A stretch of 64,000 bases of DNA from Thermomicrobiales bacterium (GTDB lineage: Bacteria > Chloroflexota > Chloroflexia > Thermomicrobiales > UBA6265): NCBI GenBank assembly GCA_019637585.1, contig JAHBVL010000001.1:496001-560000 (forward strand), in the 5' to 3' direction. This document shows, piece after piece, positions 1,078 through 18,466 of the stretch. The notes beneath the pieces are model-generated. The model was not told where the DNA came from, made no database searches, and was given only the letters and a program-made list of their open reading frames with translations. The stretch's first letter is position 1; every line of letters starts with the position of its first letter. A program made the position numbers and the translations under genes.

Positions 1078-1195
1078 TACTCACTTGGAGAGTTCGGCGA
1101 AAAGTGGTACTAATCTGTCTCTTGGGTGAATGTGCTGCAAAGCCAATAGCTGCCTGTGCATGGACAACCTCTGGAAGTCCCTGGAGTGAGAATGC

Positions 1196-1930: not shown

Positions 1931-1941
1931 CGGTGGCATGG

Positions 1942-1962
1942 GGCCGGCGTTGTAGGCCGGCC
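1942..1962. terminator. Hairpin between convergent genes
   Basis: GGCCGGC and GCCGGCC arms flank a 7-base loop in the 36-bp gap between the convergent GntR and peptidase genes. It could terminate transcription from both sides. There is no clear T-run, so this is tentative. Confidence 0.4.
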
Positions 1963-1966
1963 TCGC

Positions 1967-3196
1967 TCACGTCCCCACGATCGCGGCGCGCGTTTCCGGC
2001 GCGGCGCCGCATGCTGTCTGGATGGTGATCAGACCCGAGACAACCGATTCGGGAATGGTGACCAGCCAGAACACGTCGCCGGTTCCGTCGGCGAAGCTCG
2101 AGCGCTCGACGAGTGGGGTGTGCGATCCGGGATCGTTGATGTCGAGGGTGCAGACCGATGCGGGCTGGGCGATGCCGGTGACCACGATTTGCTCGCCAAT
2201 CGAGACACTGACCGGCGCCGAAACTACCTCGATCGGACTCGGCTGCTCGACTGGGCCGTCGATGAAGTCGTCCATGATGGCGCCGTTATAGGGTTGGTCC
2301 CAGCCGGCAATGTAGGCGGTCATCTCGTCGGAGAATGCCGCGGGAGTGGCGCCGAAGAGACTGCTGAACGTGGCATCGGCGGAGTAGCCGTTGCGCAGCA
2401 TCGTGTAGTAGATGCTCAGCGTGTTGAGCGGTTTTCCATCCATCAGGCGGGCGACTGCCGCATGGGAGAGGGCGTAGACGTCACCGTCGAAACCCTGGAA
2501 ATCGCCCCAGGCGCGGATTTGTTCGACCGGTACATGTTCCATATAGATCGCTGACACTGCCGTATCGAAGGCAATCAGGTCGGCATGATCGATGACGCCG
2601 ATCTGGTCGAGCAGGGCGTAGCAGAGGTACTCCGCCACTCCCTCTTCAAACCATGCCGGGGACTCGTTGTCGTTGAATCCCACCATCGACGACTGATAGA
2701 CATGTGTGAACTCGTGGACGATGGTGGCGATCCGCTCGGCCGGCAGCGACTGCTTCCAGGCAGGTGAACCGGTCAGGACAACAATTTGCCGGCCATTCCA
2801 ATAGGCCAGCAGCCCCGGGGAATCGGGCTCGCCGCCGGCTCGAACCCGCACCTGAAAGGGCTGATCGAAAATGGCGCCGATCTGCGTCTCGAAGAACTTC
2901 TCGGCCAGAATAAGTCCCTCGACGACAAAGTCCGCGTCCTGGCTATCGACCCCATCCTCGATGGCAAAGCTCATCGATGGCGACTGCGCGACAGCCACTG
3001 GTGCAGGGAGGAACACCACCGTTGTGGCGAGTGCCAGAGCGAGCAGCGCCAGTCGCCGCAGCGTCAAACCGGCGCTCCTTGCCGGGTTGTTGGTCCTCAG
3101 CCCGGCAGAGAATGATCCGTAGCGTCGCCATTTATGGCGACTTCTCAGGGAAGCGCCCGCAAGGGTCTTGCACCAGAGTTCGAGGAAAGCAATCAC
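1967..3196 (-). CDS. Secreted HExxH metallopeptidase-like protein (peptidase MA type), copy 1
   Basis: The 409-residue protein has a hydrophobic export signal ending near APVAVAQ (about residues 45-70) and a zinc-peptidase motif IVHEFTHVYQ, with a downstream acidic residue in AWFEEGVAEYL that fits the third gluzincin ligand. This is the arrangement of the peptidase MA / DUF-type extracellular metallopeptidases. The C-terminal 90 or so residues look like a beta-rich domain and contain a Cys pair. The gene starts at GTG 3196, 3 bp after the stop of the upstream paralog at 3200, so the two are probably co-translated. The long N-terminal extension before the signal means a later start is possible. 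Substrate unknown. Confidence 0.75.
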   Translation of the reverse strand: MIAFLELWCKTLAGASLRSRHKWRRYGSFSAGLRTNNPARSAGLTLRRLALLALALATTVVFLPAPVAVAQSPSMSFAIEDGVDSQDADFVVEGLILAEKFFETQIGAIFDQPFQVRVRAGGEPDSPGLLAYWNGRQIVVLTGSPAWKQSLPAERIATIVHEFTHVYQSSMVGFNDNESPAWFEEGVAEYLCYALLDQIGVIDHADLIAFDTAVSAIYMEHVPVEQIRAWGDFQGFDGDVYALSHAAVARLMDGKPLNTLSIYYTMLRNGYSADATFSSLFGATPAAFSDEMTAYIAGWDQPYNGAIMDDFIDGPVEQPSPIEVVSAPVSVSIGEQIVVTGIAQPASVCTLDINDPGSHTPLVERSSFADGTGDVFWLVTIPESVVSGLITIQTACGAAPETRAAIVGT

Positions 3197-3199
3197 GCG

Positions 3200-4327
3200 T
3201 TATCCAGTCAGTACGGCAACTCGCTCCACCGGTTCGCCTCCACACGCCATGTCGATGGAAATGAGTGTACCGGGCGCTCCATCTGGAACAGTAACGAACC
3301 AGTAGACGTCTCCGGTTCCATCGGCGAAGGTCGTTCGTTCAACGAGGGTCTCGCCAGTGACTGCATCGACGAAGCTGACTGCGCAAACGCTGGCCGGCAA
3401 CGCGGTCCCCTCGACGATCACCTGCTCGCCGCCAACGAGATGAACGGGGATGTTGGTCGGCCGAAACTGGGTCACGCGCTCGATCGGGTCGAAAACGAGA
3501 ATGTCGTCGGAGATGTTGGAGCTCATGGTCAATGTTGCCAGCTCCTGTTCCATTCGCGCGTAGTGTTCGCCCGGTGTGAAACCGAAGGCAAGGGTGAATG
3601 CTGTATCGAACGACTGCCCCGCGCCCATCAGGGTGTAGATCGTGCTGATCGGCGAGAGATCGGTGGTATCGGGAAAGAGCGCGGCCACGGCGAAGTAGGA
3701 AAGGGGATAGACCGCGCCCTCCGATTGCTGATAGGTTCGCCAGTCTTCCAGTTCGGAGAGTGATTCGTCGGGTGGCGCCAGTGCGAGAATTGTGCCCCAG
3801 TAGTCCTCCAGCTCCGATTGTCGAATCACCCCCCATTCGCTCATGGCCACGGCGCTGAGGAACTCGGCGACGCCTTCATCGAACCATGCTGGCGAATCGA
3901 AATTGTGCTCCCGGAGCAGGAGGAACTGATAAAAGTGGGTGTATTCGTGAACGATCACCGCGTATCGCTCGGCGGGCGATGTCTGCGTCCAGCCGTCCGA
4001 TCCGGTGAAAACGGTGATGCGGTCTTCGTCGGTCACAGCGATCCGGCCGGGAGTGGTTCCGTCGGCGGTGGGCAGCACGGTCACATGCAGCGGCATCGAG
4101 ATATCGGCGCCAAGGCGGTTGACGAAGAAATCCTGCGCCAGCCGGATCCCTTCGATGGCGAATCCGGCGTCGTGCTCGGCGACCCCTGGATCGATGGTGA
4201 AGGTCGGTTCGACAACCTGCGCGGAAGCGCCCTGAGCCACACCGCTCAGGATGAGCAGCAACGTGGTGACGGCAACCACACAGCGTCGCCGCCAGAATGC
4301 AAGCGCGGAATTGTTGGGGAATGTCAT
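3200..4327 (-). CDS. Secreted HExxH metallopeptidase-like protein (peptidase MA type), copy 2
   Basis: The 375-residue product has a clean signal peptide (hydrophobic core about residues 16-35, ending near GASAQ) and the zinc motif IVHEYTHFYQ, followed by AWFDEGVAEFL with the likely third ligand. It is a diverged paralog of the downstream gene at 1967-3196: both share the pattern of signal, HExxH, a region around YPLSYFAVAALF, and a C-terminal beta domain with a similar Cys-containing ending (FADGTGDV is common to both). Tandem duplication followed by divergence is the simplest explanation. The enzyme should act outside the membrane. No inhibitor, substrate or processing partner is evident nearby. 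Confidence 0.78.
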   Translation of the reverse strand: MTFPNNSALAFWRRRCVVAVTTLLLILSGVAQGASAQVVEPTFTIDPGVAEHDAGFAIEGIRLAQDFFVNRLGADISMPLHVTVLPTADGTTPGRIAVTDEDRITVFTGSDGWTQTSPAERYAVIVHEYTHFYQFLLLREHNFDSPAWFDEGVAEFLSAVAMSEWGVIRQSELEDYWGTILALAPPDESLSELEDWRTYQQSEGAVYPLSYFAVAALFPDTTDLSPISTIYTLMGAGQSFDTAFTLAFGFTPGEHYARMEQELATLTMSSNISDDILVFDPIERVTQFRPTNIPVHLVGGEQVIVEGTALPASVCAVSFVDAVTGETLVERTTFADGTGDVYWFVTVPDGAPGTLISIDMACGGEPVERVAVLTG

Positions 4328-4442
4328 GAGGATAGGGCGATCCTGTCCGTGGTGCGGAAGCGACGCTGCAACGAAGGCTTCGGACGCCGGTTCTCAAGCG
4401 GAACAGGCGGTCCATCGAAGCCACATGGATTGTACTTAACGA

Positions 4443-4504
4443 GGCGGAGAGGCGGAGAGGCGGAGAGGCGGAGAGGCGGAGAGGCGGAGAGGCGGAGAGG
4501 CGGA
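4443..4504. repeat. 8-bp tandem repeat (GGCGGAGA)n
   Basis: Seven perfect copies of GGCGGAGA and a partial eighth lie upstream of the peptidase pair. Because the unit is 8 bp, copy-number slippage would alter spacing between any promoter at about 4500-4560 and the gene starting at 4327. The tract produces meaningless repetitive peptides in all frames. Confidence 0.9.
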
Positions 4505-4529
4505 CGTGGCACCGATTCCAAACCAACGT

Positions 4530-4554
4530 GGAACGCGGCCCTGGGCCGCGTTCC
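4530..4554. terminator. Hairpin downstream of the dimethylformamidase-like gene
   Basis: A perfect 11-bp stem (GGAACGCGGCC / GGCCGCGTTCC) with a CTG loop lies just beyond the stop of the minus-strand gene ending at 4610. It is a good terminator stem, though the T-run after it is poor. Confidence 0.5.
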
Positions 4555-4609
4555 TAATCACTTCCCGATATAGTCCTCGGCCCTGGGCCAGCGCCGGAGG
4601 TCTCTACGC

Positions 4610-6232
4610 TTAGTCGAGGAAGCGGCGCAGGACGTTGTTCGTGATCTGTGAGATCGCTGGGTCGACGAGCACGGATGCGGGCCAGGTGATCGAGCCGACG
4701 GAGAAGACCGCACCGCCCGACTCGGTGTCGAAGGTGACGATTTCCGCGCCGCCATCATCCGGGTTGAGACCCTTGGCCAGCAGAACGGTGTTCGGTGGTG
4801 AGGATGGGCTCATCTTGTCCGTTTCATGACCCGACGCGCCGCCATGACACCGCAGATGCAACGACTCCCGGCCAAAGATGTCGCCATCGGCGAGTCCTGT
4901 TCCTTCGAAAACCCAGTGATCGGCTTTGATCGCCCGGTATGGCGCGCCGGTCATGATGCCGGTTTCGGTGGTGGCCAATCCGGTCAGTGTTGCTTCGGCT
5001 TCGTATGAGCGATGCATGCGCGAGTCGAAGACATTTCCATCCTCATCGACATACCCCAGCGTGCCGGACGCGCCCCGATCCGACCCCAGGAAGGTTCGGA
5101 AGTGCAATGTGGCGTCGTCGAGGAACTCGACTTCGCAGTTGAGGCCATTGCCGCCCAGGTACATGAACTTGCCGCCTCGTTCGTAGACCCACGTTTTGAT
5201 ATTGGCAAGCATCTGCCGCGACCAATACTCCGGGTGCGCGGAGATGAGCACCACTTTGTAGGCATCGAGATCGAGCGCGCCGGTGTGCAGGTGGTGCTCG
5301 GCGTAGACATCATGGGCATACCCTTCGCGTTCCAGCCAGGCGAGCTGCCGCCACTCGGCCGGGGCGAGCGAGGAATCGAGGCGCCCGCCAAGCAGATCGG
5401 TCACCTCGTCATGCTCGGCGACGTGACATCCCAGTTCCGGCCGCTCGAAGGAAAGCGGCGGGTACGCATCGTCAGGGTGCCGCCATTCGCCAAATGCGCC
5501 GGTCGGGTCATAGCGCAACAGGTCGAGCCGGGCATTGACCGTCGGGCTCGATTGCAGACCAGCGGAATTGATGTAGTTACTTCGTCCTCCGAAGTTGTTG
5601 TAGGCGTTCCAGTTATTGGTCGCCAGGACCACGGCGATATCCGCCCGCGGTTTGTCCGGCGCCACGACCCAGGGGAAGGAAAAGAAACGAGTCGCCGTCT
5701 TGGCATGCAGGTAGTAGAGACCGGGTCGCTCCGGACCGGTGACGAACTGGGTCTGGTGCGGATTGGTGTAGCCGATCTGGTTCCATTTGATGCCGGTCTG
5801 GGTGTAGTCGCCATCGGGTGTGATCTGCATGACCGCCCGGGGGCCATGCTCGTCGAAAACGCCAAGGTAGCGGATGAATTCCTTCTTCAATCCGTAGCGC
5901 CAGAGGGAAAGCTGATAGGGCTCGACCGAATGCACCCGAAACTCCGACTTCTCGCCGGTTTGCACCCACTTCGGCCAGACATAGCCGAGCAGGGAATCGG
6001 AGAGCAACCGGAACTGATATGGCTCATCGAGCGGCAGGGTGAGCTTGACCGATTTGGAACCGAATCCGGATTTGACCAGCGTCACCCGGTAGTCGCCGGC
6101 CGGAACATCGGCATGCACCGCACCGCGAGCGGTCGAGTGGGTCGCGACCACGGTTTGGCCATCCTGATCGAGCTCGATAGCGCAATCGGCGATGGCAATG
6201 TAGTTCTCGTCCGAGACATACCCGATGAGCAT
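4610..6232 (-). CDS. N,N-dimethylformamidase beta-subunit-like protein
   Basis: The 540-residue protein matches the large-subunit family of N,N-dimethylformamidase. The N-terminal about 100 residues form a beta-sandwich-like domain. A long C-terminal catalytic-type region follows, with motifs such as VLATNNWNAYNNFGGRS, HPEYWSRQM and YLGGNGLNCEV, typical of this family. Such enzymes hydrolyse C-N bonds in small amides; many genomic members have unknown substrates, so DMF itself should not be assumed. The start is ATG 6232, set by an AAGGAGTG ribosome site; the frame is open further upstream but that extension is not credible. No small alpha subunit is seen next to it. Confidence 0.75.
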   Translation of the reverse strand: MLIGYVSDENYIAIADCAIELDQDGQTVVATHSTARGAVHADVPAGDYRVTLVKSGFGSKSVKLTLPLDEPYQFRLLSDSLLGYVWPKWVQTGEKSEFRVHSVEPYQLSLWRYGLKKEFIRYLGVFDEHGPRAVMQITPDGDYTQTGIKWNQIGYTNPHQTQFVTGPERPGLYYLHAKTATRFFSFPWVVAPDKPRADIAVVLATNNWNAYNNFGGRSNYINSAGLQSSPTVNARLDLLRYDPTGAFGEWRHPDDAYPPLSFERPELGCHVAEHDEVTDLLGGRLDSSLAPAEWRQLAWLEREGYAHDVYAEHHLHTGALDLDAYKVVLISAHPEYWSRQMLANIKTWVYERGGKFMYLGGNGLNCEVEFLDDATLHFRTFLGSDRGASGTLGYVDEDGNVFDSRMHRSYEAEATLTGLATTETGIMTGAPYRAIKADHWVFEGTGLADGDIFGRESLHLRCHGGASGHETDKMSPSSPPNTVLLAKGLNPDDGGAEIVTFDTESGGAVFSVGSITWPASVLVDPAISQITNNVLRRFLD

Positions 6233-6417
6233 GGTGAAAAGGCACTCCTTGTGGTCGCGGCGAACAGCACTGTCGGCATCATAATGGCAGAACGCCGAAC
6301 GCACGCGACCGCCTGAATGGAGTGGCCATGGAGCAGTCGTGGAGGAGCCGTACCTGCCGCGACATCGCGTTCCCTCACCCGTTTGCGGCGGCTTCGATCG
6401 CTTGACGCTGCCTGTTC

Positions 6418-6870
6418 CTACGACTCGGAAAAGGGCTCGGTCGCGGACTGGAACGGGATTGCGACGCGGTTCCAACCGTTGATCGCGATCACCACCAGCG
6501 TCAGGTCGCACAAACCCTTCTCGCCAAAGGCATCACGGGCGGCAATGAAGACTTCTTCGGGCACACCGCCATGCTCGAGCGTAGTTACGGCCTCCGTCCA
6601 TGCCAGCGCCGCTTGCTCGCGCGGGGTGAACCAGTCTGTCTCCCGCCAGGCGCTCAACACCGCCAGGCGGTCGACCCGCTCTCCGTCCGCCAGCCCTTCG
6701 CGGGTGTGCAACGCCATACAGTAGGCGCATCCATTGATCTGGGAGGCTCGCATCTTGATCAAGTGGATCAATCGGGGTTCCAGATCGGTCGATTCGATGT
6801 ATTCCTCCAACCCCAGCATCTGCTGGTACAACCCCTGCATTGCGCCACGATCGGAAATGCGAGTGTTCAT
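6418..6870 (-). CDS. Carboxymuconolactone decarboxylase / AhpD-like protein
   Basis: The 150-residue protein is an all-helical CMD-family member. It carries the redox motif of the AhpD branch, CAYCMALH (Cys-x-x-Cys-x-x-x-His, about residues 46-53), so it probably acts as a cytosolic peroxidase or thiol-disulfide protein rather than as a true decarboxylase. Start ATG 6870 follows AGGAGCGG; a frame extension to 6912 lacks a ribosome site. It is divergent from the DinB-like gene at 6986, and the two probably share the regulatory region 6871-6985. Confidence 0.85.
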   Translation of the reverse strand: MNTRISDRGAMQGLYQQMLGLEEYIESTDLEPRLIHLIKMRASQINGCAYCMALHTREGLADGERVDRLAVLSAWRETDWFTPREQAALAWTEAVTTLEHGGVPEEVFIAARDAFGEKGLCDLTLVVIAINGWNRVAIPFQSATEPFSES

Positions 6871-6985
6871 GGGATGCCGCTCCTGACACAGACCATGCGC
6901 CGCATTGCGCACTCAACCAGTACTCTCCACTGCGACAGGATATCTCGCGTGGACGACGCGACTGCACGATGAAAGGGAGTTCTCG

Positions 6986-7492
6986 ATGAACAGCACCTCC
7001 ACAAGCCAATGGCTCGAGCTGATCGGACATGGAGCCTGGGCGGATGAGCAACTGCTCGACGCGGCTGCCCGCCTTTCCGCAGAGGACCTTCAGACAGCGA
7101 TAGGACCCGGGGGGTATGGCTCGCTATTTGAAACGCTCGTACATATCCATGACGCCCAAAAGTTCTGGTTCGACCGGGCCAGGGGGAAGCCACTCGAGGA
7201 GCATCCGGTGATCGCGAGTCTCGACGAGCTCCGCAGCGCCGCCAGCGTCCAGTTCGCCCAGTTGAGCGCCTACGTCACATCACTCGACGATGAAGCCCTG
7301 GATGAGGTGGTCGAATACCGTTCACACGACGGGTTTTCGGGCGCTCTCGCCCGCCGCCACATGCTTCTCCATCAGGCGCTCCATGCGCAGCAGCACCGGG
7401 GTGAGGTCGCTCTCGCCCTCACTCGCGCCGGTCGTTCGCCCGGCGAAATCGATTTTGACGTCTATCTGTGGGGGAAGAGTCGCGAGGGCTAG
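6986..7492 (+). CDS. DinB-family four-helix protein
   Basis: The 168-residue protein shows the DinB/YfiT pattern: a first histidine in VHIHDAQKFW and a C-terminal cluster in LHQALHAQQHRGE that supplies the other metal ligands. Family members are metal-binding helical bundles; several transfer thiols such as bacillithiol or mycothiol, while many have no known reaction. The start is ATG 6986, preceded by AAGGGAG. The name DinB here is a family label and does not imply the damage-inducible polymerase. A second, distant DinB-like gene is at 49817. Confidence 0.85.
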   Translation: MNSTSTSQWLELIGHGAWADEQLLDAAARLSAEDLQTAIGPGGYGSLFETLVHIHDAQKFWFDRARGKPLEEHPVIASLDELRSAASVQFAQLSAYVTSLDDEALDEVVEYRSHDGFSGALARRHMLLHQALHAQQHRGEVALALTRAGRSPGEIDFDVYLWGKSREG

Positions 7493-7508
7493 GTCATTTC
7501 CTATCTCC

Positions 7509-7784
7509 CTACTCAACCTCTCGCAACAGCGTCTCTACGGCCCCGAGTCGTTCCCGCAGTTCGCGGACTCCTTCGGAAAGCTCCGCCAGCCGGTTTGCCG
7601 ATACTTGCTGCGCGGCTGTCGCGTCGGCGATCGCCTGCCGATACTGAGCCATGAGCTCCGTTTCCTTGTCGGCCGAGATCTTGATCTGGGCGGTATTGAA
7701 CACCTGCCAGATGACCGCGAAAACGATGATCGTCACCATGGCCACCCCAGCCACCGCAACAGCGTCGAAATAACCTTCCATCAT
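7509..7784 (-). CDS. Small membrane-anchored coiled-coil protein, partner of ArsR-type regulator
   Basis: This 91-residue protein has one transmembrane helix (about residues 12-29) followed by a charged, heptad-like helix (about 38-90) rich in Glu, Arg, Ala and Leu, which should form a cytosolic or external coiled coil. No enzymatic motif is present. Its start overlaps the stop of the ArsR-type gene by 4 bp (7781-7784), so the two are translationally coupled and likely respond to the same signal. Function unknown. Confidence 0.75.
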   Translation of the reverse strand: MMEGYFDAVAVAGVAMVTIIVFAVIWQVFNTAQIKISADKETELMAQYRQAIADATAAQQVSANRLAELSEGVRELRERLGAVETLLREVE

Positions 7785-8122
7785 TCGTCCTCCTTCTTCT
7801 CGCTCAACGTCCGGGCCGCCCGTGCAATCGACTCAGGGGACAGCTCCAGAACAAATGGCGTGACCTCGAAATAGCGCATCGCTTTGCCGTCGTTGGACAG
7901 TTCCAGCACGCTGCTGACAACCCCCGCTGCTTCGAGCTTCTGCAGGTGCAGATGCAGGAGTGGCCGGCTCATCCTCAGATCGCGCGCCAGCTGACTCACA
8001 TAGTTCCGGCCGTTCGCGAGCGAAGCGACGATGCGAACGCGCTGTGGGTTCGACAGCGCATCGAGCAGCTTCACCAGCTCGTCCCCAGTCAATTCGGCTC
8101 GTGTGTCAGCGTGAACGTCCAT
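7781..8122 (-). CDS. ArsR-like winged-helix transcriptional regulator
   Basis: The 113-residue protein contains a winged helix: LLDALSNPQRVRIVASL, then a recognition helix around QLARDLRMSRPLLHLHLQKL and a beta wing. It has no ArsR-type metal-binding cysteines, so the signal is probably not a soft metal. The start ATG (8122-8120) is the most upstream possible in this frame, because a stop lies just before it. It falls within the left arm of a perfect palindrome (8121-8144) that is the obvious autoregulatory operator. It is coupled to the membrane coiled-coil gene downstream. Confidence 0.85.
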   Translation of the reverse strand: MDVHADTRAELTGDELVKLLDALSNPQRVRIVASLANGRNYVSQLARDLRMSRPLLHLHLQKLEAAGVVSSVLELSNDGKAMRYFEVTPFVLELSPESIARAARTLSEKKEDE

Positions 8123-8144
8123 ATGTCAGAATATCCTGACATAT
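8121..8144. promoter_or_regulatory. Palindromic operator overlapping the start codon of the ArsR-type gene
   Basis: The arms ATATGTCAG (8121-8129) and CTGACATAT (8136-8144) are perfect complements around a 6-base centre. The ATG of the regulator gene lies at 8122-8120, at the operator's edge, leaving no room for a normal leader between operator and start. Either transcription starts within the palindrome and the mRNA is nearly leaderless, or the repressor blocks elongation. Confidence 0.75.
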
Positions 8145-8344
8145 GTCATACCCGAATGTCAAGGCGAATACCGTCAGGCCTTCTCAGCAACGCTCCCCTC
8201 CCGAAATCCCACATCCATTCCCGTTGCTCGCCCTGCGCCTTTGCCCTTTGCCTTTTGCCGTTTGCCCGTTTCCCCCCTTTGTCACGTTTTCGCTCGATTC
8301 GCAACTAAGATTGCAGATGAATCGCTGAAAACGGAACATGGATC

Positions 8345-8962
8345 ATGTGTGCTCAGGCGCCAGCCAATCAACCACCGAGCCACTCGGGTCCCCCGGGGCA
8401 CGCGGACAGCTCCGCCCCGGGCGGCGGCTCGCCTGCTGATCCGGCTCACTTCGAGCGGTTGTTCGATCGCTATTGGGACGCCGTCTTCCGATACTGCTAC
8501 GTGCGGTTGAGCGACTGGCATCTCGCCGAGGACACCGCCAGCCAGACCTTTCTGCACGCCCTGGCCGGGTTTCCATCGTTCAGGGGAGGCGCAGACGAGA
8601 TGGCTTTCCGCTGCTGGCTCTTTGCCATCGCCCGCACCACCGTGGCCGGCGTACACCGGGGAGCGTATCGGCAGCAATCCACCGCATTGGATCAGGCTGC
8701 CGGATTGGCCGATCCCGGATTCTCGCTTGAAGAACTCACCATCATTGCCGAGCGGCAAGAGCGATTGCGCGGTCTGCTTGATGCACTGCCACCCCTCCAG
8801 CAAGAGATGATCGAGCTTCGATCGGCTGGGTTGAGCGCTGCCGAAATCGGCGTCGTGCTCGGCAAGTCCGAGGCCGCCGTACGCCAGGCTCAGTCGCGCC
8901 TGATCAGATCGCTGCGAGCCGAGTTCACGGAATCAGACGCGTATCAGGATCTCCGTTCATGA
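8345..8962 (+). CDS. ECF-type RNA polymerase sigma factor
   Basis: The 205-residue protein contains sigma region 2 (FERLFDRYWDAVFRYCYVRL, about 36-55, and the promoter-melting segment around FRCWLFAIARTTV) and sigma region 4 (LPPLQQEMIELRSAGLSAAE, about 150-195, with the helix-turn-helix GKSEAAVRQAQSRLIRSL). The first about 30 residues are Pro/Gly/Ser-rich and probably disordered. It overlaps the next gene by 4 bp (ATGA at 8959-8962), which is the common layout for an ECF sigma factor and its regulator. The low-complexity stretch at 8228-8280 upstream has no clear promoter. Confidence 0.9.
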   Translation: MCAQAPANQPPSHSGPPGHADSSAPGGGSPADPAHFERLFDRYWDAVFRYCYVRLSDWHLAEDTASQTFLHALAGFPSFRGGADEMAFRCWLFAIARTTVAGVHRGAYRQQSTALDQAAGLADPGFSLEELTIIAERQERLRGLLDALPPLQQEMIELRSAGLSAAEIGVVLGKSEAAVRQAQSRLIRSLRAEFTESDAYQDLRS

Positions 8963-10317
8963 CCGATCACTTCGACCAAACCGTCAACCGATTCTGGGAC
9001 GACCTCGCCGCGGCCCGCTATCCGACGGTAGAGATCGAACCAGAGAGCGCCCGAACGATCGCGGGGCTCCACTCCCTCTTCCCGGCGTCCTTGCCGGTCT
9101 CGGCTCGCGAGCGAGCCCGGCAGCGCGTGTTTCAGTCTTCCGCTCTACCTCAGGAGAACACAATGACTGCCATTTCGATTCCGGTTTCGTGTCCCGCGCC
9201 GAACGGGACCAGGGCGACGGCTGTGCCAGCGCCGCCATTGCCGCATCGCCCCCGACACCAGCCCCGCTTCATCGCATTCTCGATAGCAGCGGTCGTGCTG
9301 TTGCTGCTCGCCGGCATCGGCGCCTACCTGGCGCTCGTTCCGGAACACGATCGCCTCTTCGGCGGCGGGGACAACAATCACGTGATTCCAGCCGCGCAAC
9401 CGGCATTCGACCCCACAGACGTCTCCGTCATCTGGGAAACGGGTGGAACCGTTGACCATCCGCTTGAGTGGCCAGTCGCGGTGGCGATTGCTCCCGACGG
9501 CAACGTCTATGTCGCCAATGCTTCCGCCAGCACCATTGAGGTTTTTTCACCAGCCGGCGAGCACCTGGAGTCCTGGGGTGAGGCAGGCGAAGGACCGGGC
9601 CAGTTTGCCTTTTCCTATGGAGTCTTCACGCTGGCCGACCTCGAGTTCGATAGTGACGGCAATCTTTTCGTCTTCGACTCGCTCAACGGTCGCATTCAGA
9701 AATTCGCTCCCGACCATACGTTCATCCTCGAATGGGGAACGTACGAGGTCGACGCCGACGCCCCAGGTGAGTTCGATCTGGTCATGGGCGGCGTGGATAG
9801 CGATCTGGGACTGGTGTATGCCTCCGATCGAACCGGCCGGATCCAGGTATTCGACCTTGATGGCAACTATCAGTACCAGTGGGGTTCGACCGGCATCGGC
9901 CCCGGTGAGTTCACCTACCCATGGGATGTCGATGTCGTCGACGGACGGGTCTTCATCGTCGATGAGGGTTCGATTTACGAAATTCCCAAGGGGGACCCCC
10001 GCGTGCAGGAGTTCGACTCCTCTGGCGCATTGATCGAGGGACAGGGAGCGCTGGGAAGCTTCTTCTCCGACTTCAGCTCGACCACCCACTTCATCGAATT
10101 CGACCCGACCGGCAGGCTCTTTGTGGCCGACTATGAAGCGCGTGCCGTTCGCATCGCATCGGAAGACGGCCGGCTGATCGACAGCCTGATCAACCTGCCG
10201 GGAGGACTGTCGCTCGCCGGCCCAAGCGGTATGGCCTTCGACGACGAAGGCAATCTCTATCTCGTCGATGACCTCACCAATCTCCTGATCAAGGTGGCCA
10301 TTCCGCCAGGCGAATAG
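8959..10317 (+). CDS. Membrane NHL-repeat beta-propeller protein, candidate anti-sigma/sensor
   Basis: The 452-residue protein has a cytosolic N-terminal part (about 1-100), one transmembrane helix (about 102-125), and an external propeller of NHL-type repeats (for example VAIAPDGNVYVANASAST, GNLFVFDSLNGRIQKF and GLVYASDRTGRIQVFD). Coupled 4-bp overlap with the sigma gene and this topology suggest a membrane anchor that holds the sigma factor and senses something outside. No zinc anti-sigma motif is present, so this is inference. An internal ATG at 9163 has a strong AGGAG site and is in frame, so a shorter form lacking the first 68 residues may also be made. Confidence 0.75.
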   Translation: MTDHFDQTVNRFWDDLAAARYPTVEIEPESARTIAGLHSLFPASLPVSARERARQRVFQSSALPQENTMTAISIPVSCPAPNGTRATAVPAPPLPHRPRHQPRFIAFSIAAVVLLLLAGIGAYLALVPEHDRLFGGGDNNHVIPAAQPAFDPTDVSVIWETGGTVDHPLEWPVAVAIAPDGNVYVANASASTIEVFSPAGEHLESWGEAGEGPGQFAFSYGVFTLADLEFDSDGNLFVFDSLNGRIQKFAPDHTFILEWGTYEVDADAPGEFDLVMGGVDSDLGLVYASDRTGRIQVFDLDGNYQYQWGSTGIGPGEFTYPWDVDVVDGRVFIVDEGSIYEIPKGDPRVQEFDSSGALIEGQGALGSFFSDFSSTTHFIEFDPTGRLFVADYEARAVRIASEDGRLIDSLINLPGGLSLAGPSGMAFDDEGNLYLVDDLTNLLIKVAIPPGE

Positions 10318-10415
10318 CGCAACACATCCGAGCCTTCTTCTCCGTTGTCAGCGGGGAAGAAGGCGCGTCAGGGAAAACGGAACGACGCGGTTGCAGCGAC
10401 GCGCGACATGATGAT

Positions 10416-10515
10416 GTAGCGGCGACGCCTGCGTTGCGGGGCGCAACCGAAGGGCTGTATGGGACCAGACGCACTTTTTCTCACAGAAATGGGCAACGCA
10501 GGCGTTGCCGCTACA
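10416..10515. repeat. Inverted pair of REP-like elements (GTAG family 1)
   Basis: A GTAG-headed hairpin sequence at 10416-10437 faces a near-identical inverted copy at 10494-10515. Each half is GTAG, one base, then an 8-bp-arm hairpin (GGCAACGC / GCGTTGCC in the intact right half). The same pair recurs at 30325-30423, and a single worn copy at 11470-11494. This matches the architecture of REP/BIME elements moved by RAYT transposases. Confidence 0.75.
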
Positions 10516-10540
10516 CCGTTCGCCCAGTGCCTATTGCCTA

Positions 10541-10651
10541 GTGGCCGACGTCGACCATCAGCGTATTCAGGTTTTCGATACCGAGGGCAACTTCCTGACC
10601 ATGTTTGGAAGCGTGGGCACCGGTCTGGATGGCTTCGTTTTGATGGAAGGG
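10541..10651 (+). pseudogene. NHL-repeat gene fragment
   Basis: Translation in one frame gives an isolated NHL repeat (VADVDHQRIQVFDTEGNFL, then a phase typical of the next blade: MFGSVGTGLDGF). It has no start, no stop linked to the motif, and no neighbours in frame. It lies 220 bp after the intact NHL-propeller gene and right after the REP-like pair. It is best read as the remnant of a second propeller gene that has been largely deleted. Confidence 0.6.
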
Positions 10652-10724
10652 AACTTCGGTAGGACAAGGCGCCGATCCAGCCGCGATTGCCCGGTCAATA
10701 CCTGGCTTGTCCAAGGTCGAATCG

Positions 10725-11273
10725 TCAGATCTGGAAAATACGGTGGAGCTCGATTCCGAAACCAGGCAGCACGTCCTGGCCGTCGAGTGTCGCCGATCCA
10801 TGAAGCACCTGAGGCTCCGCCCCCGGTTTGTGGACGGTGACGGTGCGGCGTTCCGGGTCGACCCACCAGACAAGCCGCACAACCGCTTGCGCGTAGAGCT
10901 CCTGCTTCTTCTGCATATCGGAGCGCGCATCGGTCGGGGAAATCACCTCAACGGCCAGGTCAGGTGGGATGGGGAAAAACCCTCGCTCGGGCACGCCAGC
11001 GGGCAGTCGTTCTCGGCGGATGAATCCCACATCTGGCGCCACGACCGTGTAGGGATCGCGGTTCAGGATGTAACCAGCATCGGCGTTCGTGACGAAGCCA
11101 AGCCCGTGAGCATCGACGTGCATCATGACCGAGGTGAGGATTCGTGCCCCGATGACTCCCGGCCTCGCGCTGGATGGTGACACTTCCTGAAGCACCCCTT
11201 CGATCAACTCGAATCGGCCGTCGATGCCCATCTCCAGGAACTCTTCCGCTGTAATCAGATGTGTCGTGGTCAT
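10725..11273 (-). CDS. Uma2 family endonuclease (DUF820)
   Basis: The 182-residue protein is a Uma2/DUF820 member with the PD-(D/E)xK-like core: TAEEFLEM at the start, FELIEGVLQEVSPSS, VAPDVGFIRRERLP with the metal-binding Asp, and LAVEVISPTDARSDMQKK with the Glu and Lys positions. Its start is ATG 11273. Such genes are amplified in Cyanobacteria and Chloroflexota and are suspected to be mobile or nuclease-like; the true role is unknown. The frame continues upstream to 11384, but that part is not like the family. Confidence 0.9.
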   Translation of the reverse strand: MTTTHLITAEEFLEMGIDGRFELIEGVLQEVSPSSARPGVIGARILTSVMMHVDAHGLGFVTNADAGYILNRDPYTVVAPDVGFIRRERLPAGVPERGFFPIPPDLAVEVISPTDARSDMQKKQELYAQAVVRLVWWVDPERRTVTVHKPGAEPQVLHGSATLDGQDVLPGFGIELHRIFQI

Positions 11274-11469
11274 AAAGCGGTTCCTCGAGGGTGAGATAGT
11301 CCGTCCCGATGGTACCACTCCGTCGTCCCTTCCCTTGCGCACAAGGCAGGTGATCGACCCCTGAGGGAGGCATCCGTTTCTCATCCCTCAGACCAGGAAA
11401 GTCACATCCCTGCGAGTTCCATCTGGCGATGACGTTCAGTAGCGGACGCCTGTCCCGCTGCCCTGCTGT

Positions 11470-11494
11470 CAACAAACGTAGGCGTCGCCGCTGC
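11470..11494 (-). repeat. Degenerate single REP-like element (family 1)
   Basis: Read on the minus strand this gives GCAGCGGCGACGCC followed by TACGTTTG, a worn version of the left half of the pair at 10416. The GTAG head is changed to GCAG and the hairpin is broken, so it is probably no longer mobile. Confidence 0.45.
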
Positions 11495-11612
11495 GCCTTG
11501 TCCACTGTGGCGGCTTTCTATCTGTCTGACCGGTGAGAAACCCCGGCGTGTCGACAACCGAGGCGATTGCGCTGGACAGCGCACCCGACCCGGGCGATGC
11601 GGCGGGCCGCTT

Positions 11613-12041
11613 TCAGACCGGGATGACGGCCAGGGCTTCGGAGCCGCCATAGACGGATGCGGCTGGGATGCGGCGATCGAAGGTCGCCAGCTTCCCGCCA
11701 TAGTGCGCTGCCAGACCGAGGAGATAGACATCGGTGATCTGCCGGTGTGTGACTATCGTGCCGGGGCGCAAGAGGTCCCGCAGGCTCACTGATTCGGACC
11801 AGAAGTGGTGGCTCGAGGTCGCGCAGGAACGCCTCAATATAGCCACCATCAAGGCGGGATCTTTCAGGGATCCTGGATAGCTGGCGGCGCTGGTGATCCG
11901 GACGAAGCCATTCTCGGTGAGAGCGCAGGTGGCCCATCCCTCTCTACCAACCGTGTCAAACCAGCGGTGCGCCGCGTTGCTGAACGCATGGTTGGCGTCG
12001 TGCATCGCCAGCAGCACGTTGACATCGAGTAGGTAGACCAT
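11613..12041 (-). CDS. PIN-domain ribonuclease toxin (VapC family)
   Basis: The 142-residue protein is a PIN-domain protein with the usual acidic positions: Asp in MVYLLDVNVLLAM, Glu in ALTENGFVRI, and Asp residues in QITDVYLLGLA and LATFDRRIPA. It should be a metal-dependent RNase held in check by the antitoxin encoded just upstream. Start ATG (12041-12039) overlaps the antitoxin stop by one base (TAATG), so expression is coupled. This is the TA group whose PIN toxins contain the TNRVKP/TENGFVRI-like segment. Confidence 0.88.
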   Translation of the reverse strand: MVYLLDVNVLLAMHDANHAFSNAAHRWFDTVGREGWATCALTENGFVRITSAASYPGSLKDPALMVAILRRSCATSSHHFWSESVSLRDLLRPGTIVTHRQITDVYLLGLAAHYGGKLATFDRRIPAASVYGGSEALAVIPV

Positions 12042-12268
12042 TAGGGAAGTTCGTCGCGCAGCTCGTTGACCATCTCCATCGTCACCACGACGGATGAGTC
12101 ACGTATCGGAAGTTGAGGAAAGCCATTGCGCTCAGGTAGGTCAAGTGGCGACGCGAGGCTCTCCCGCACCAGATCGGAGAGCACCTTCCCGGTCGATTGA
12201 TTCCGCTCCCGCGCCATCTCTTTGGCAGCGAAGAGGATGTCTTCGTCGATGTCGAGTGTCGTGCGCAT
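12041..12268 (-). CDS. Antitoxin of PIN-domain module (ribbon-helix-helix type)
   Basis: The 75-residue protein begins MRTTLDIDEDILFAAKEMAR, the classic N-terminus of a ribbon-helix-helix antitoxin, followed by an acidic, toxin-binding tail. The start ATG 12268 is preceded by AAGGAGCG; longer frames up to 12415 lack such a site. It should bind and silence the PIN toxin at 11613-12041 and repress its own promoter. Confidence 0.85.
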   Translation of the reverse strand: MRTTLDIDEDILFAAKEMARERNQSTGKVLSDLVRESLASPLDLPERNGFPQLPIRDSSVVVTMEMVNELRDELP

Positions 12269-12469
12269 CCTTCGCGCTCCTTCCTTAATAGACGAACATG
12301 AGAGAAATGATGCGACCGCATCATTTGGGTGATGCATGCGCATCACACCATGGTACCGCATTGAGCTGTCCGTGGTCATTCCCAGGCAGCAGACCGCAGC
12401 CCACCCCGCCACCAAGGCGCGGACGAGCGGCGTTTTGCCGATGCAACAGCTTCTTCCGAAGAAACGCGT

Positions 12470-13648
12470 CTACCAGTCGCCCACCGATCCATCGCTGTAG
12501 AACGAGCGCTGCAGCAGTTCCTGTTGGAACGGGTGTTTGCGGACCTCGTCCTCATTGATCTCGATGCCGAGACCCGGTTTCTCGTTGGGAAGGACGATCC
12601 GGCCTTCCTTTTGAACCGTATAGCCTTCCTGAACGACATCCTGCCGCCAGGGAACATCTTCCGTCACTGTTTCGCAGATGATGTAACTCGGTTGGGAGAA
12701 CCCGAACTCGAGGCTGGCGGCCGTGCTGACCGGGCCCTGGGGATTGTGTGGGGCCAGCGCGATACGATGCGCTTCGGCAAGCGCGGCAATCCGGCGAGCC
12801 TCGGTCAGTCCGCCGCAATGGGTGATGTCCAGCTGACAAATCTCGCAACCGCGGACATCGAAGAGAGCTTTGAACTGGGCGAGGTGGGTCATGCGCTCGC
12901 CGGTGGCCACCGGCGTCGTCAGACTGGCGTTGATGTGAGCCAACCCTTCGAGGGATTCCGGCCAGCAGGGCTCTTCGAAGAAGTAGAGATTGAACTGTTC
13001 CAGCGCCTGGCCGAACTTGAGACCCATCGCGGGTGAAGGGCGGGCATGACAATCGACCATGATGTCGATGTCATCGCCGACCGCGTCGCGCATGGCGGCG
13101 ACATTGTTGACCGCCCATTGCACTGGCCGGTTGCCTTCGATAGGCATGGTTTCCGGCACAGCCATCGATTTGAAGGCGGTATAGCCGTTCTCCACGGCAG
13201 CCTGGGCGAGTTCGCCGAATCGCTTGCTGTCGTCGCGGCCGGTTTCATAAAAGTCTTCCAGTTTGCCGCCGCCCAGGTGGGCATATGTGCGGACGTGATC
13301 GCGGACCGGCCCGCCCCAGAGTTTGTGGCAAGGCATCCCGGCGACCTTGCCCTTGATGTCCCAGAGGGCGAGATCGATACCGGCGATGGCCGTGGCCCGG
13401 ACAATGCCGTTTCCATGCCAGAAGTGCTGGCGATACATCATCTGCCAGAGATGCTCGATCCTGGATGGGTCTTCGCCGATCAACAACTGGCTCAGATCCT
13501 CGATCGATCCGACGACCCCGCGAGTGTGCCATTCCAGCGTGGCCTCACCCCAGCCGACCAATCCCGGTTGATCGGTGGTGATCTTGACGAAAATCCAGTT
13601 GCGCATCCGCGCATTGCAGACGAGGGTTTCGATCTTTTCGATTTTCAC
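12470..13648 (-). CDS. Enolase-superfamily dehydratase, D-galactonate dehydratase-like
   Basis: The 392-residue protein is a mandelate racemase/muconate lactonizing family member. The N-terminal capping domain is followed by a TIM barrel with metal ligands in VDCHAR, FFEEPCW and ATGERM and the catalytic His in [11 protein letters not shown]. These positions, and the ending [12 protein letters not shown], follow the D-galactonate dehydratase pattern, so dehydration of an aldonic sugar acid to its 2-keto-3-deoxy form is the best guess. Start GTG 13648 follows AAGGAG at normal spacing. It lies on the same strand as the sugar ABC transporter at 14468-17823, separated only by a toxin-antitoxin module, so uptake and breakdown of a sugar or sugar acid may be linked. 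Confidence 0.85.
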
Positions 13649-13750
13649 AGCGTACTCTCCTTCTGCTTCATCGTATCGCGTTTGCCGTGGGGTCGTGGGA
13701 TACCTACGACTACGATTCGAGTCACATCGCGGAGCGGAGTTCTGGCCAGT

Positions 13751-13769
13751 TATAATCTAGATTGTCTAG
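13751..13769 (+). promoter_or_regulatory. -10 box and operator of the Phd/VapC module
   Basis: A perfect TATAAT (13751-13756) is directly followed by the inverted repeat CTAGA-TTG-TCTAG (13757-13769), about 35 bp before the antitoxin start. No good -35 is visible. Toxin-antitoxin modules usually repress their own promoter through such a site. Confidence 0.55.
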
Positions 13770-13804
13770 CCAATATGGCCTCCGGTTGAAAGGATGGTCC
13801 GCCC

Positions 13805-14044
13805 ATGGAATGGCAACTGGCCGAAGCGAAAAACAAGTTCAGTGAAGTCGTCACCCGGGCGTTACATGAAGGACCGCAGCGGGTACGGCGGCGCGATGGT
13901 GTGGTTGTGATTGTCTCCGAGGAAGAGTACCTGAGACTCGCCGGCAAGCCGATGACGTTGAAGGACTACCTGTTGAATGCACCCGACTTCACGGGCGTCG
14001 ATCTGGAGCGGGATCAGAGCCCCATGCGTGATGTCGACCTGTGA
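13805..14044 (+). CDS. Phd/YefM-type antitoxin
   Basis: The 79-residue protein starts with the Phd/YefM pattern (WQLAEAKNKFSEVVTRAL, then RVRRRDGVVVIVSEEEYLRL), a DNA-binding dimer fold, with a flexible C-terminal tail that would wrap around the toxin. It overlaps the PIN toxin gene by 4 bp (GTGA, 14041-14044). A TATAAT box and palindrome sit upstream. Confidence 0.9.
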   Translation: MEWQLAEAKNKFSEVVTRALHEGPQRVRRRDGVVVIVSEEEYLRLAGKPMTLKDYLLNAPDFTGVDLERDQSPMRDVDL

Positions 14045-14463
14045 GCTTCTTGCTCGATACGAACGTCGTCTCCGAACTCGCACGGCCAGCGCCCGATGGG
14101 CGAGTGGTTGAGTATGTCGAAGGGATCGACCCGGGCGATATCTTTCTGAGCGCGATCACGATTGGCGAGTTGGCGCGCGGCGTGTCGTTGCTCCCGGACG
14201 GTCGGCGAAAGGCATCGCTCGGAGCCTGGGTGACAGGGCTGGAGCTTCAATTTCAGACGCGAATTCTGCCAGTCGATCGCGAGGTGGCTCGGTTCTGGGG
14301 AGAACTGACAGCCCGCGCCCAGCAACGGGGCGTCGTGATCTCCACCGCCGACGGGTTGATCGCCGCAACAGCGGTGCACCACGGTCTACGCATCGTGACC
14401 CGCAACACCCGCCATTTCGAGGCGAGTGGCGTGGCAGTTATCAACCCCTGGGCGGGGAGCTGA
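14041..14463 (+). CDS. PIN-domain ribonuclease toxin (VapC family)
   Basis: The 140-residue protein has all the PIN landmarks: FLLDTNVVSEL with the first Asp, ITIGELARGV with the Glu, and STADGLIAATA plus IVTRNTRHF with the C-terminal acidic and polar positions. It is a close match to FitB/VapC-type toxins and should cleave RNA when free of its Phd-type antitoxin. Its GTG start lies inside the antitoxin stop. The pair is inserted between the galactonate-dehydratase-like gene and the ABC permeases, on the opposite strand. Confidence 0.92.
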   Translation: MSFLLDTNVVSELARPAPDGRVVEYVEGIDPGDIFLSAITIGELARGVSLLPDGRRKASLGAWVTGLELQFQTRILPVDREVARFWGELTARAQQRGVVISTADGLIAATAVHHGLRIVTRNTRHFEASGVAVINPWAGS

Positions 14464-14467
14464 CGTC

Positions 14468-15358
14468 TTAGCCCTTCAGCGCTCCAACCGTCAACCCCTT
14501 GGTGATCTGGCGCTGCAGGAAGAAGAAGATGATCAAGACCGGCACCATGGTCAATGTCATGCCGGCGAAGATCCCCACCCACCTGCCGGAATAGACGGCT
14601 TGTTGGTCGAGATAGGTGAGACCGAGGGTGACGGTGTACTCCGACCGATCCCGGATGAAGAGGAGTGCGTAGAAGAACTCGTTCCACCAGGTCAGAAAAT
14701 TGAGGATGAGCAGTGAGGCAATACCCGGCTTGGCCAGGGGCAGCATGATCTGCCAGAAGGTGCGGAGCGGCGACGCGCCATCGATGGCCGCGGCCTCCTC
14801 CAGCTCGAAGGGCAGCGTTTTGTAGAACCCGGTCATGACGAACGTATTAAATGAAACGCCGCCTACCGAATAGAGCACGATCAGAATCATGTAGACATTG
14901 ACCCAGTCGAACCGCTGCCGGAGATCCTCGACGATGGAGAAGAGCGGAATCGCGGTCAGCGGGTACGGAATCATGATGCCCAGCAGGAAGAACATCAGGA
15001 GCGGATGACTGAGCTTGAACGGAATCCGGGCGATCGGCCACGCGGCGAAGCAGGCCAGTGTCACGCTGCCGATCGTGCCCATGGTGGTCACGATCAGACT
15101 GTTGAGAAACATCCGTCCGACGCCAGTTTCCCACGCTTCCCGCCAGTTCGACCAATGCAGCGTATCCGGCAGATGCCAGGGCGGAAACATCAGGATATCG
15201 GTATTCGACTTGAGCGATGTCAGCACCACCCATCCGAAAATGACGATGGTGAAGAGGCAGTAGATGGCCAGCACGACATAGATTGCCGTGAACTTGAATG
15301 TGCCAGGCGGCACAGTGTGTCCCTTCACAGGGGTCGGAGATCCCGAGGAAGCAGCCAT
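14468..15358 (-). CDS. Carbohydrate ABC transporter permease (MalG-like)
   Basis: The 296-residue protein has six predicted membrane helices and the EAA loop (EEAAAIDGASPLRTFWQIML, about residues 198-217) that docks onto the ATPase. It resembles MalG/LacG-type inner-membrane permeases (CUT1 family). The last helices end in the usual RQITKGLTVGALKG tail. It follows the MalF-like gene by 46 bp in the same direction. The ATP-binding subunit is absent here, as is common when one shared ATPase serves several sugar transporters. Confidence 0.93.
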   Translation of the reverse strand: MAASSGSPTPVKGHTVPPGTFKFTAIYVVLAIYCLFTIVIFGWVVLTSLKSNTDILMFPPWHLPDTLHWSNWREAWETGVGRMFLNSLIVTTMGTIGSVTLACFAAWPIARIPFKLSHPLLMFFLLGIMIPYPLTAIPLFSIVEDLRQRFDWVNVYMILIVLYSVGGVSFNTFVMTGFYKTLPFELEEAAAIDGASPLRTFWQIMLPLAKPGIASLLILNFLTWWNEFFYALLFIRDRSEYTVTLGLTYLDQQAVYSGRWVGIFAGMTLTMVPVLIIFFFLQRQITKGLTVGALKG

Positions 15359-15404
15359 CGATCAGGTTCTCCAGGTTTCCAAGGCTGAATCTGCCCTGAT
15401 CATC

Positions 15405-16298
15405 TCAATACTCCACCGTTTCCCGCATGGTGATCCGGTTGACCATCAGACTGAGCAGGAAGATGGCGCCCAGCATTGCCGTGGCCAGCGCCGACCCATA
15501 CGCCCATTTGAAGTCGTTGAACGCGATGCGATAGACGTATGTGACCATCACATCGGTGGAACCCAAAGGCCCACCGACCGCGACGGGTCCCGTCATGACA
15601 AAAATGAAGGTGAATGCCTGCAGCGCCTGGATGATCCAGAGCACCAGCAGAATCCGCAACACCTCCCAGAGCAGGGGAATGGTGACGGTGCGGAAGACTT
15701 GCCAATCGCCGGCGCCGTCCAGTTTTGCCGCGTCCGGAAGATCGGGTGGGATGCGGTCCATCCCGGCGGAAATGAGCAGAATCCAGGTGCCGACGCCATG
15801 CCAGACCGACGCCACGATGATGGCCGTCAGAGCCCAGCGTGGACTGCCAAGCCAGGGAACGGCGAAATGCTCCAGCCCGATTCGCTCCAGAAAGGGATTG
15901 AGGAGACCCTGCGAGGGGTTGTAGATCCATTTCCAGATCAGACCAGCCACGCTGGCCGCAATGACCACCGGCGCCAGGATGATGAAGGAAAAGAATCGTT
16001 TGCCTCGCAATGGCTGTTGGAGCGCCCAGGCAATGGCCATCGCGGGCACAAAAAGGAGCAGCCCACCGATGAAGGTGAGGCGGATCGAGTTCTCGACGGC
16101 ATTGTGGAAGTTGCCATCCTTGAGCAGAACGTTGTAGTTCTTCAATCCGACCCAAACCTTGGGGTTGCCGTGTCCCTGCCAGTTGGTGAAGCTGTAGTAG
16201 ATCGTGAGCGCCAGCGGCACAAACATCACGAGCGTGTACAGAATCAGCTGCGGCAGAACAAAAGGCAGGATCAGTCGGCGCCTGGCCTGCTGGAACAC
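15405..16298 (-). CDS. Carbohydrate ABC transporter permease (MalF/UgpA-like)
   Basis: The 297-residue protein shows the CUT1 permease pattern: an N-terminal helix (about 10-30), further membrane helices, and the EAA loop (DAAKLDGAGDWQVFRTVTIP, about 188-207). With the MalG-like protein it forms the membrane channel. A hairpin (16324-16348) separates it from the upstream binding-protein gene, which probably lowers permease expression relative to the binding protein. Confidence 0.93.
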   Translation of the reverse strand: MFQQARRRLILPFVLPQLILYTLVMFVPLALTIYYSFTNWQGHGNPKVWVGLKNYNVLLKDGNFHNAVENSIRLTFIGGLLLFVPAMAIAWALQQPLRGKRFFSFIILAPVVIAASVAGLIWKWIYNPSQGLLNPFLERIGLEHFAVPWLGSPRWALTAIIVASVWHGVGTWILLISAGMDRIPPDLPDAAKLDGAGDWQVFRTVTIPLLWEVLRILLVLWIIQALQAFTFIFVMTGPVAVGGPLGSTDVMVTYVYRIAFNDFKWAYGSALATAMLGAIFLLSLMVNRITMRETVEY

Positions 16299-16323
16299 CC
16301 GGGGCTCCTAGCCTGAGGGAAAA

Positions 16324-16348
16324 GCGGGAGCGGCATTGCCGCTCCCGC
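16324..16348 (-). terminator. Attenuating hairpin between binding protein and permease genes
   Basis: GCGGGAGCGGC and its perfect complement flank a 3-base ATT loop; on the minus strand the stem is followed by TTTTCCC. The position right after the binding-protein stop (16369) and before the permease start (16298) is classic for partial termination or 3'-end protection in sugar ABC operons. Confidence 0.75.
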
Positions 16349-16368
16349 GTTGCGAATGGTTCCGGCGA

Positions 16369-18463: not shown

Positions 18464-18466
18464 CGC

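Follow-up and report, generated by a model that had tools for sequence, protein, structure and literature searches.

The window analysed here, a 64,000-nucleotide stretch of a contig from a Thermomicrobiales bacterium of the Chloroflexota, carries on its forward strand a gene for an ECF sigma factor that overlaps a downstream gene for a membrane protein. The features of this locus are as follows:

8280..8302 (+), putative autoregulatory ECF promoter block TGTCACGTTTT-N9-CGC, common to the window and its paralog
8345..8962 (+), ECF sigma factor of 205 aa with regions 2 and 4, BldN-like by best matches (Pfam, NCBIfam, PDB profile)
8959..8962 (+), ATGA, overlap of the sigma stop and the partner start (translational coupling), read from the sequence
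8959..10317 (+), single-pass membrane protein of 452 aa with a cytosolic head and an outer NHL propeller, proposed anti-sigma factor
8959..9144 (+), head, about residues 1-62, of a three-helix Chloroflexota head family (alignment A5, profile match of 53.7 bits to a profile of which the window protein is itself a row)
9102..9117 (+), near-palindrome GGCTCGCGAGCGAGCC within residues 43-57 (codon comparison with the paralog)
9152..9165 (+), internal Shine-Dalgarno sequence (SD) and in-frame ATG, possible start of a 384-aa headless form (sequence, recoding tests)
9262..9336 (+), membrane helix, residues 102-126 (AlphaFold2 helix, hydropathy)
9424..10299 (+), outer NHL beta propeller, residues about 156-447 (Pfam, AlphaFold2, Foldseek)
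10329..10367 (+), strong hairpin 11 nt past the partner stop codon, with no T run (inverted repeat)

The predicted product of 8345-8962 is an ECF sigma factor (sigma-70 group IV) made up of the sigma2 and sigma4 domains only. Region 2 scored 29.4 bits against a Pfam cut-off of 24 and region 4 scored 32.8 against 25.7; Sigma70_r2, Sigma70_r4_2 and Sigma70_r4 were above cut-off, and no further Pfam domain exceeded its own. The NCBIfam model TIGR02952 gave 95 bits, under its cut-off of 206, and the nearest solved relatives in profile searches of the PDB were the ECF factor 9isn_F (2.2e-29) and the ECF chain 6dxo_A (1.3e-27), the latter belonging to an entry that we take to be BldN-RsbN. The four-base overlap with the partner gene described in the initial annotation is present as ATGA at 8959-8962, and the partner start was placed 3-19 nt before the sigma stop in 30 head loci having a sigma stop, under a picking rule that favours overlap. 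The strong hairpin after the partner stop suggests that the transcription unit is probably two genes long: the RNA fold of 10310-10385 reached -30.6 kcal/mol (z -3.17), and the hairpin, which was not among the results of a simple terminator scan, likely marks the end of the two-gene transcript. Scans for tRNA and tmRNA in window positions 1-20000, and for Rfam families at gathering scores in positions 6000-14000, gave no matches.

The DNA beyond this hairpin has features of its own. An inverted-repeat element occurs in two copies (10415-10515 and 30325-30423), with ends GCAACGCAGGCGTTGCCGCTAC and about 55 nt between the arms; shuffled sequences gave no match to it, and it looks like a small mobile or REP-type repeat. 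Downstream of the operon, a remnant NHL blade, RIQVFDTEGNFLTMFGSVGTGLDGF, was found at about 10535-10660 on the forward strand (NHL profile E 5e-6); it may be what is left of a propeller gene that decayed next to the repeat. On the reverse strand, at 11613-12415, two small adjacent ORFs have by eye the look of a PIN-domain toxin and its antitoxin.

In the partner protein, the cytosolic part of about 100 residues, the single membrane helix and the outer NHL propeller that had been read from its translation were all found. Basic residues precede the membrane helix and acidic residues follow it, which suggests that the N-terminus is inside. The placement of the propeller outside the cell was supported. 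By its repeats (Pfam E 3.6e-15) and its predicted fold, the outer part is an NHL propeller: the AlphaFold2 model had a pLDDT of at least 75 over most of residues 151-450, weaker around 311-410, and its best Foldseek match was the NHL region of Thin (6xg7, TMt 0.85). In the head, AlphaFold2 placed helices at residues 4-17, 28-36 and 47-60 at low confidence, with a pLDDT of about 45 and 58 in two models of three sequences each.

The initial annotation had seen no known anti-sigma motif in the partner, and the profile searches agree with it. Pfam and NCBIfam searched at E 1 returned no anti-sigma family for this protein, none exceeded its curated cut-off in 32 heads, and the head profile run against the PDB found, up to E 10, no chain called an anti-sigma factor. 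Scattered weak matches of the head in Pfam, NCBIfam and the PDB were read as chance, and a tblastn search of plasmids with partner residues 1-139 gave no match. The head family has no Pfam or NCBIfam name, and among the open-licence papers listed no title or abstract opening names such a head; this apparently undescribed head would be the unusual part of the pair.

A second sigma-NHL pair was identified in the same genome (3.94 Mb, 33 contigs), with the sigma gene at L007:3746-4387 and the partner extending to 5717, the two overlapping by 8 bases. The partners of the two pairs are 54% identical over nearly their full length, head included, and the sigma factors 42%. Within residues 43-57, 12 of 12 shared codons are identical between the paralogs, 10 of them contiguous (permutation p 0.029), and the near-palindrome lying there occurs in exact form in this genome in the two paralogs only. 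Two further pairs were found in the relative G005 (L021, L028). A three-row protein profile (A1) matched at E 1e-50 in 4 of 61 genomes of the order, which indicates that the NHL version is not common in the order.

The head, whose consensus over the first ~65 residues is RYWDAL...LDPALA.TVRR.HAL...F..RL...L, was also searched for on its own. Among 158 genomes of the class, a four-head profile (A3) matched in 20, at no fewer than 36 places. A 32-row profile (A5) matched in 26 of the 61 order genomes, at 64 or more places, and in 27 of a sample of 400 genomes from the phylum, at 39 or more; these counts are lower bounds, with at most 36 candidates scored per genome for A3 in the class, 97 for A5 in the order and 14 for A5 in the phylum. 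The union amounts to at least 93 places in Chloroflexota. The protein of the window has the defining traits of the family, namely a head profile match, a membrane helix after about 100 residues and an upstream ECF sigma gene, a match that holds by construction since the window is one of the four profile seeds.

Apart from those four seeds, the head places were selected by head sequence and not by neighbourhood. An ECF sigma gene was found directly upstream on the same strand in 84 of the 90 head loci examined, a locus being counted as linked when the sigma stop lay between -20 and +149 nt relative to the head match; three weak sigma-less head matches (L155, L159, L160) were left out of the 90 and would make the figure 84 of 93, and L290, which lies at a contig edge and had been retrieved for a different purpose, was left out of the linkage counts. 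All seven head loci found in the window's own genome are sigma-linked. As for the unlinked loci, L129 has a sigma match in the same open frame as the head, L231 and L156 are situated at the ends of contigs, the head matches of L294 and L302 are weak, and L144 is the one clear orphan, a head with no sigma gene in ~650 nt upstream. The sigma factor and the membrane protein form a conserved pair, and relatives with separated genes, which the initial annotation had named as evidence against its reading, are not the rule. The head proteins at L144:699-3536 (+) and L156:146-3001 (+), both with no visible upstream sigma gene, have similar outer parts; in L156 only 145 nt lie between the head ORF and the contig end.

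Propellers that lack the head behave differently: an adjacent sigma match was found at 0 of 78 headless NHL loci (six of which have <700 nt before the match), and among 80 loci picked by propeller similarity two carry heads, with a sigma gene adjacent to those two only. From the sigma side, a sigma profile (A4) run at E 1e-45 on 32 family genomes matched in 19 of these, at 58 places, of which 35 were already in the head set. The loci of the 23 new places, together with one extra gene on L348, gave 24 further sigma genes; a membrane-helix ORF follows 22 of these, and a head-profile match at E 0.01 or better follows only 10, so more diverged heads may exist.

The outer parts of 30 other head proteins were examined with Pfam (E 0.01 or E 0.001, by batch), and the following domains were assigned:

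L130, L132, L142, L153 and L225, PQQ propellers
L131, NHL
L144, LVIVD repeats
L151:2741-5143 (-), sortase (E 2.4e-15)
L230, L232, L237 and L239, Rieske [2Fe-2S], directly behind an ECF sigma gene
L224, cupredoxin; also L223, under cut-off
L233, Big_5 (Ig-like)
L133, L138, L139 and L145, cupin, at or under cut-off

In 11 of the 30 proteins scanned, no Pfam domain was found in the outer part. NHL repeats are present in at least 5 of the 90 head loci (the window, L007, L021, L028 and L131), and L153 has NHL/SGL-like matches beside PQQ. The head and the membrane helix are constant and the outer domain varies, which suggests a modular set. The four Rieske head proteins are possible redox-sensing anti-sigma factors, and in L151 an enzyme, the sortase, would be the outer part of a presumed anti-sigma factor.

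Several known systems resemble the pair in part. Passages of PMC8103513 and PMC7406223 describe RsbN of Streptomyces as a membrane-anchored anti-sigma factor with three helices contacting the sigma factor. In this class III arrangement, helices 1 and 2 lie on sigma4 and helix 3 on sigma2, followed by the membrane anchor; for the window protein, low-confidence models give three helices, and a membrane helix is present. The sigma factor of the window adds to the likeness by its profile match to the ECF chain 6dxo_A, whereas the head profile matches no solved anti-sigma chain and the heads described here carry large and varied outer domains. By class, the three-helix RsbN type would be the closest to the head; the sequence tests gave no link between the two, however, and the head was not filed there. 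In RsdA of Mycobacterium, a short helical segment in the cytosol precedes a single membrane helix, and one of the 32 heads matched its sigma-D binding region (PF16751) at E 0.059, below the gathering score. A link to RsdA was not supported, PF16751 being over cut-off in 0 of 61 order genomes, a null result of unproven sensitivity since 0 of 14 control genomes matched either.

The class I and zinc anti-sigma factors (RseA, RsiW, ChrR type) share the gene order and, presumably, the role; they have four helices and, in the zinc type, HX3CX2C, in contrast to the three helices (low confidence) and the lack of HX3CX2C in the window head. A class I anti-sigma domain, including the zinc type, was accordingly set aside, with no Pfam or NCBIfam match and no Cys in residues 1-77. 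PknD of Mycobacterium tuberculosis has one membrane helix and an NHL propeller, its structure 1rwi being matched by the window propeller at 2e-7, but it carries a kinase inside where the window protein has the proposed sigma-binding head. ECF57-type sigma factors, described in part of PMC8999054 as having WD40-like C-terminal extensions, also tie an ECF sigma factor to a propeller-type repeat, but there the repeats are in the sigma factor itself and here they are in a separate membrane protein. In the open-licence literature searched, no paper was found on NHL-repeat anti-sigma factors, on ECF factors of Thermomicrobia, or joining an ECF or anti-sigma factor with internal translation and a truncated form.

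The two proteins also vary together. Over 84 pairs, sigma and head similarities correlated with r 0.52, and within-genome partner swaps gave r 0.30 +/- 0.06, with 0 of 2000 reaching the observed value. This co-variation is consistent with contact between sigma factor and head, short of proof, and joint descent of neighbouring genes contributes to it.

A motif of two blocks, CGTAACaYTT-N12/13-CGTTTAC, precedes many sigma genes of the family. It was significant at 26 of the 33 loci with strong heads in a two-fold cross-validation against shuffles, for which the starting motif had been read by eye from those same sequences. In a separate sigma set of 25 rows, in which one gene is present twice, 17 rows also had it, as did 17 of the 49 loci with weak heads. 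At the window, however, the family motif was not significant (p 0.21), nor was it at L021 (p 0.30). A strict form, GTAACACTT-N12-14-CGTTYAC, had one match in 32 genomes (G015:C412, L354) and 0 in the window's own genome, and this sole match lies upstream of a family sigma gene that had not gone into the motif, 76 nt from the part of the gene that was matched. The putative promoter block at 8280-8302 was defined separately: the pattern TGTCACGTTTTN{8,11}CGC, derived from the same two sites that it recovers, has exactly two matches in the 3.94 Mb genome, upstream of both sigma-NHL operons, and GTCACGTTTT agrees by eye with the family -35 sequence GTAACACTTT at 7 of 10 positions. Since the block is shared, both pairs may answer to each other's sigma factor. 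A loose promoter pattern allowing two mismatches gave 62 matches against 32 for a reversed control and was set aside, and a sigma-70 promoter scan of 8000-10700 found 0. Among ECF sigma factors, autoregulation from a promoter with AAC at -35 and CGT at -10 is frequent but not universal. AAC/CGT boxes, anti-sigma co-transcription and autoregulation are named in part of PMC8103513 as hallmarks of the first ECF factors studied, with about 55% autoregulated.

At the level of sequence, the sigma linkage, the architecture shared across the family and the ECF-type promoter before most of its strong members are thus established. The linkage in 84 of 90 head loci against 0 of 78 headless NHL loci, the second pair and its relatives, the co-variation and the promoter motif together point to the two genes being, very probably, those of an ECF sigma factor and of the cognate membrane anti-sigma factor, the N-terminal ~100 residues likely holding the sigma-binding part. 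The description of the NHL protein as standing in place of a classical anti-sigma factor was overstated: this protein itself looks like the anti-sigma factor, its head being found again across Chloroflexota in front of many other outer domains. Gene overlaps are frequent in bacteria, and the ATGA could on that ground be taken for ordinary gene packing between chance neighbours, the NHL protein having nothing to do with the sigma factor; the same contrast between head loci and headless NHL loci contradicts this, and we regard it as extremely improbable. A membrane protein that senses and acts on the sigma factor in another way, as an activator, a scaffold to a receptor or a folding aid, and not as an inhibitor, is another alternative. 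An activator or scaffold role would produce the same genomic pattern, linkage, co-variation and a shared promoter cannot separate inhibition from activation, and the membrane protein has no recognised anti-sigma domain. Nevertheless, a short helical cytosolic head, one membrane helix, an outer domain and a downstream gene are the layout of a membrane anti-sigma pair, and co-transcription and autoregulation are among the hallmarks given in that part of PMC8103513; a role other than inhibition appears quite improbable to us.

If the membrane protein is the anti-sigma factor, its three-helix cytosolic head would bind the sigma factor and keep it from RNA polymerase at the membrane, and the outer NHL propeller would bind a ligand or an envelope partner. 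A signal would then loosen or destroy the head, and the freed sigma factor would transcribe its own operon in a positive feedback, and perhaps also that of the paralog, which has the same promoter block. Chloroflexota would have joined this head, as a module, to many outer sensor domains. In the least certain step of this scheme, translation from the internal start at 9163 may also supply a headless protein, a competitor for the signal that does not hold the sigma factor.

The elements of that start are present: AGGAG at 9152-9156 and the in-frame ATG at 9163-9165, spaced by N6 and lying just behind helix 3. The site is kept in the L007 paralog as GAGGAGAACACGATG, just behind the run of identical codons, and a strong SD with an in-frame ATG occurs at this position in several other members. 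Its frequency was compared with synonymous recodings in two tests that have most operons in common and include related operons, which do not count as independent. Over 106 operons, the stretch from 35 residues after the sigma stop to the membrane helix had 42 SD-bearing sites among 124 in-frame ATGs, against 29.0 expected (z 4.2), and 22 strong SDs against 13.2 (z 3.7). The outer domains of these operons had SD-bearing ATGs at 20 of 314 against 25.9 expected, and the sigma genes had any SD at 28 of 267 against 19.1 (z 2.8) and strong SDs at 6 against 4.9. When whole regions were recoded, in 78 of the 106 operons, strong in-frame SD-ATGs between head and helix numbered 14 against 8.8 expected, with 1 in 200 recodings as high, and out of frame 0 against 2.2; in the outer domain, the figures were 0 against 2.7 in frame and 1 against 2.6 out of frame. 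A first, smaller test was weak (18 of 42 ATGs with an SD against 13.1 expected). The SD-ATG excess between head and membrane helix is real, though modest and weakened by shared descent. In RNA folds, the internal start of the paralog is predicted to be paired (L007:4506-4596, CGTGTTC with GAACACG); near-identical pairing is possible by eye at window 9085-9175, but the predicted fold there differs.

The second form proposed in the initial annotation gained more support than had been expected, with a real site and an enrichment of in-frame sites behind it; the amino-acid sequence, however, accounts for about two thirds of this signal. A headless form from 9163 is plausible; that the start is in use, giving a headless membrane sensor that competes for signal or oligomer partners, we hold to be possible and somewhat doubtful. 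Its conservation in the paralog behind the identical-codon run (p 0.029) and the excess of SD-bearing in-frame ATGs in the head-to-helix region, unlike the outer domains, argue for use, whereas 29 of the 42 SD-bearing ATGs are expected from amino acids alone (WEDLM, QENTM), the sigma genes also show the any-SD excess, though not for strong SDs, many members, L021 among them, have no internal SD-ATG, and the RNA folds around the internal start are unremarkable (z -1.2 and -1.4). We give about even chances to the SD-like sites being no starts, but ribosome pauses that aid membrane insertion or a by-product of the conserved helix-3 motif, since the WE[DE][LI]M that ends helix 3 yields GGGAGGA...ATG by itself. 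SD-like pauses are reported from E. coli membrane proteins in part of Fluman et al. (PMC4359368); its passage on long N-termini, which covers codons 16-36 only and is silent on a site near codon 65 as here, gives no raised pausing at those codons when at least 80 residues precede the first membrane helix (n = 16). Moreover, strong SDs between head and helix precede in-frame ATGs (14) and no out-of-frame ATGs (0), and a pause would not need the frame.

In the broadest form of the proposal, one undescribed three-helix anti-sigma head would serve throughout the Chloroflexota as the shared connector between dozens of ECF sigma factors and outer sensors of unrelated kinds (propellers, the redox domains Rieske and cupredoxin, sortase), and many such genes would also make a headless sensor from a second start at the border of head and linker, tuning or ending the response; taken as a whole, we consider this proposal unlikely. 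If the second start is true, one gene would give both an inhibitor and a sensor-only competitor. In the searched Chloroflexota genomes, many ECF sigma factors are followed by a partner with a head that Pfam and NCBIfam do not name. With a single head profile, the likely anti-sigma partner can be picked out, its inner and outer sides can be told apart, and a promoter to seek is suggested. Consequently, unannotated signalling pairs become testable, including those whose outer part is a redox domain (Rieske, cupredoxin) or an enzyme (sortase).
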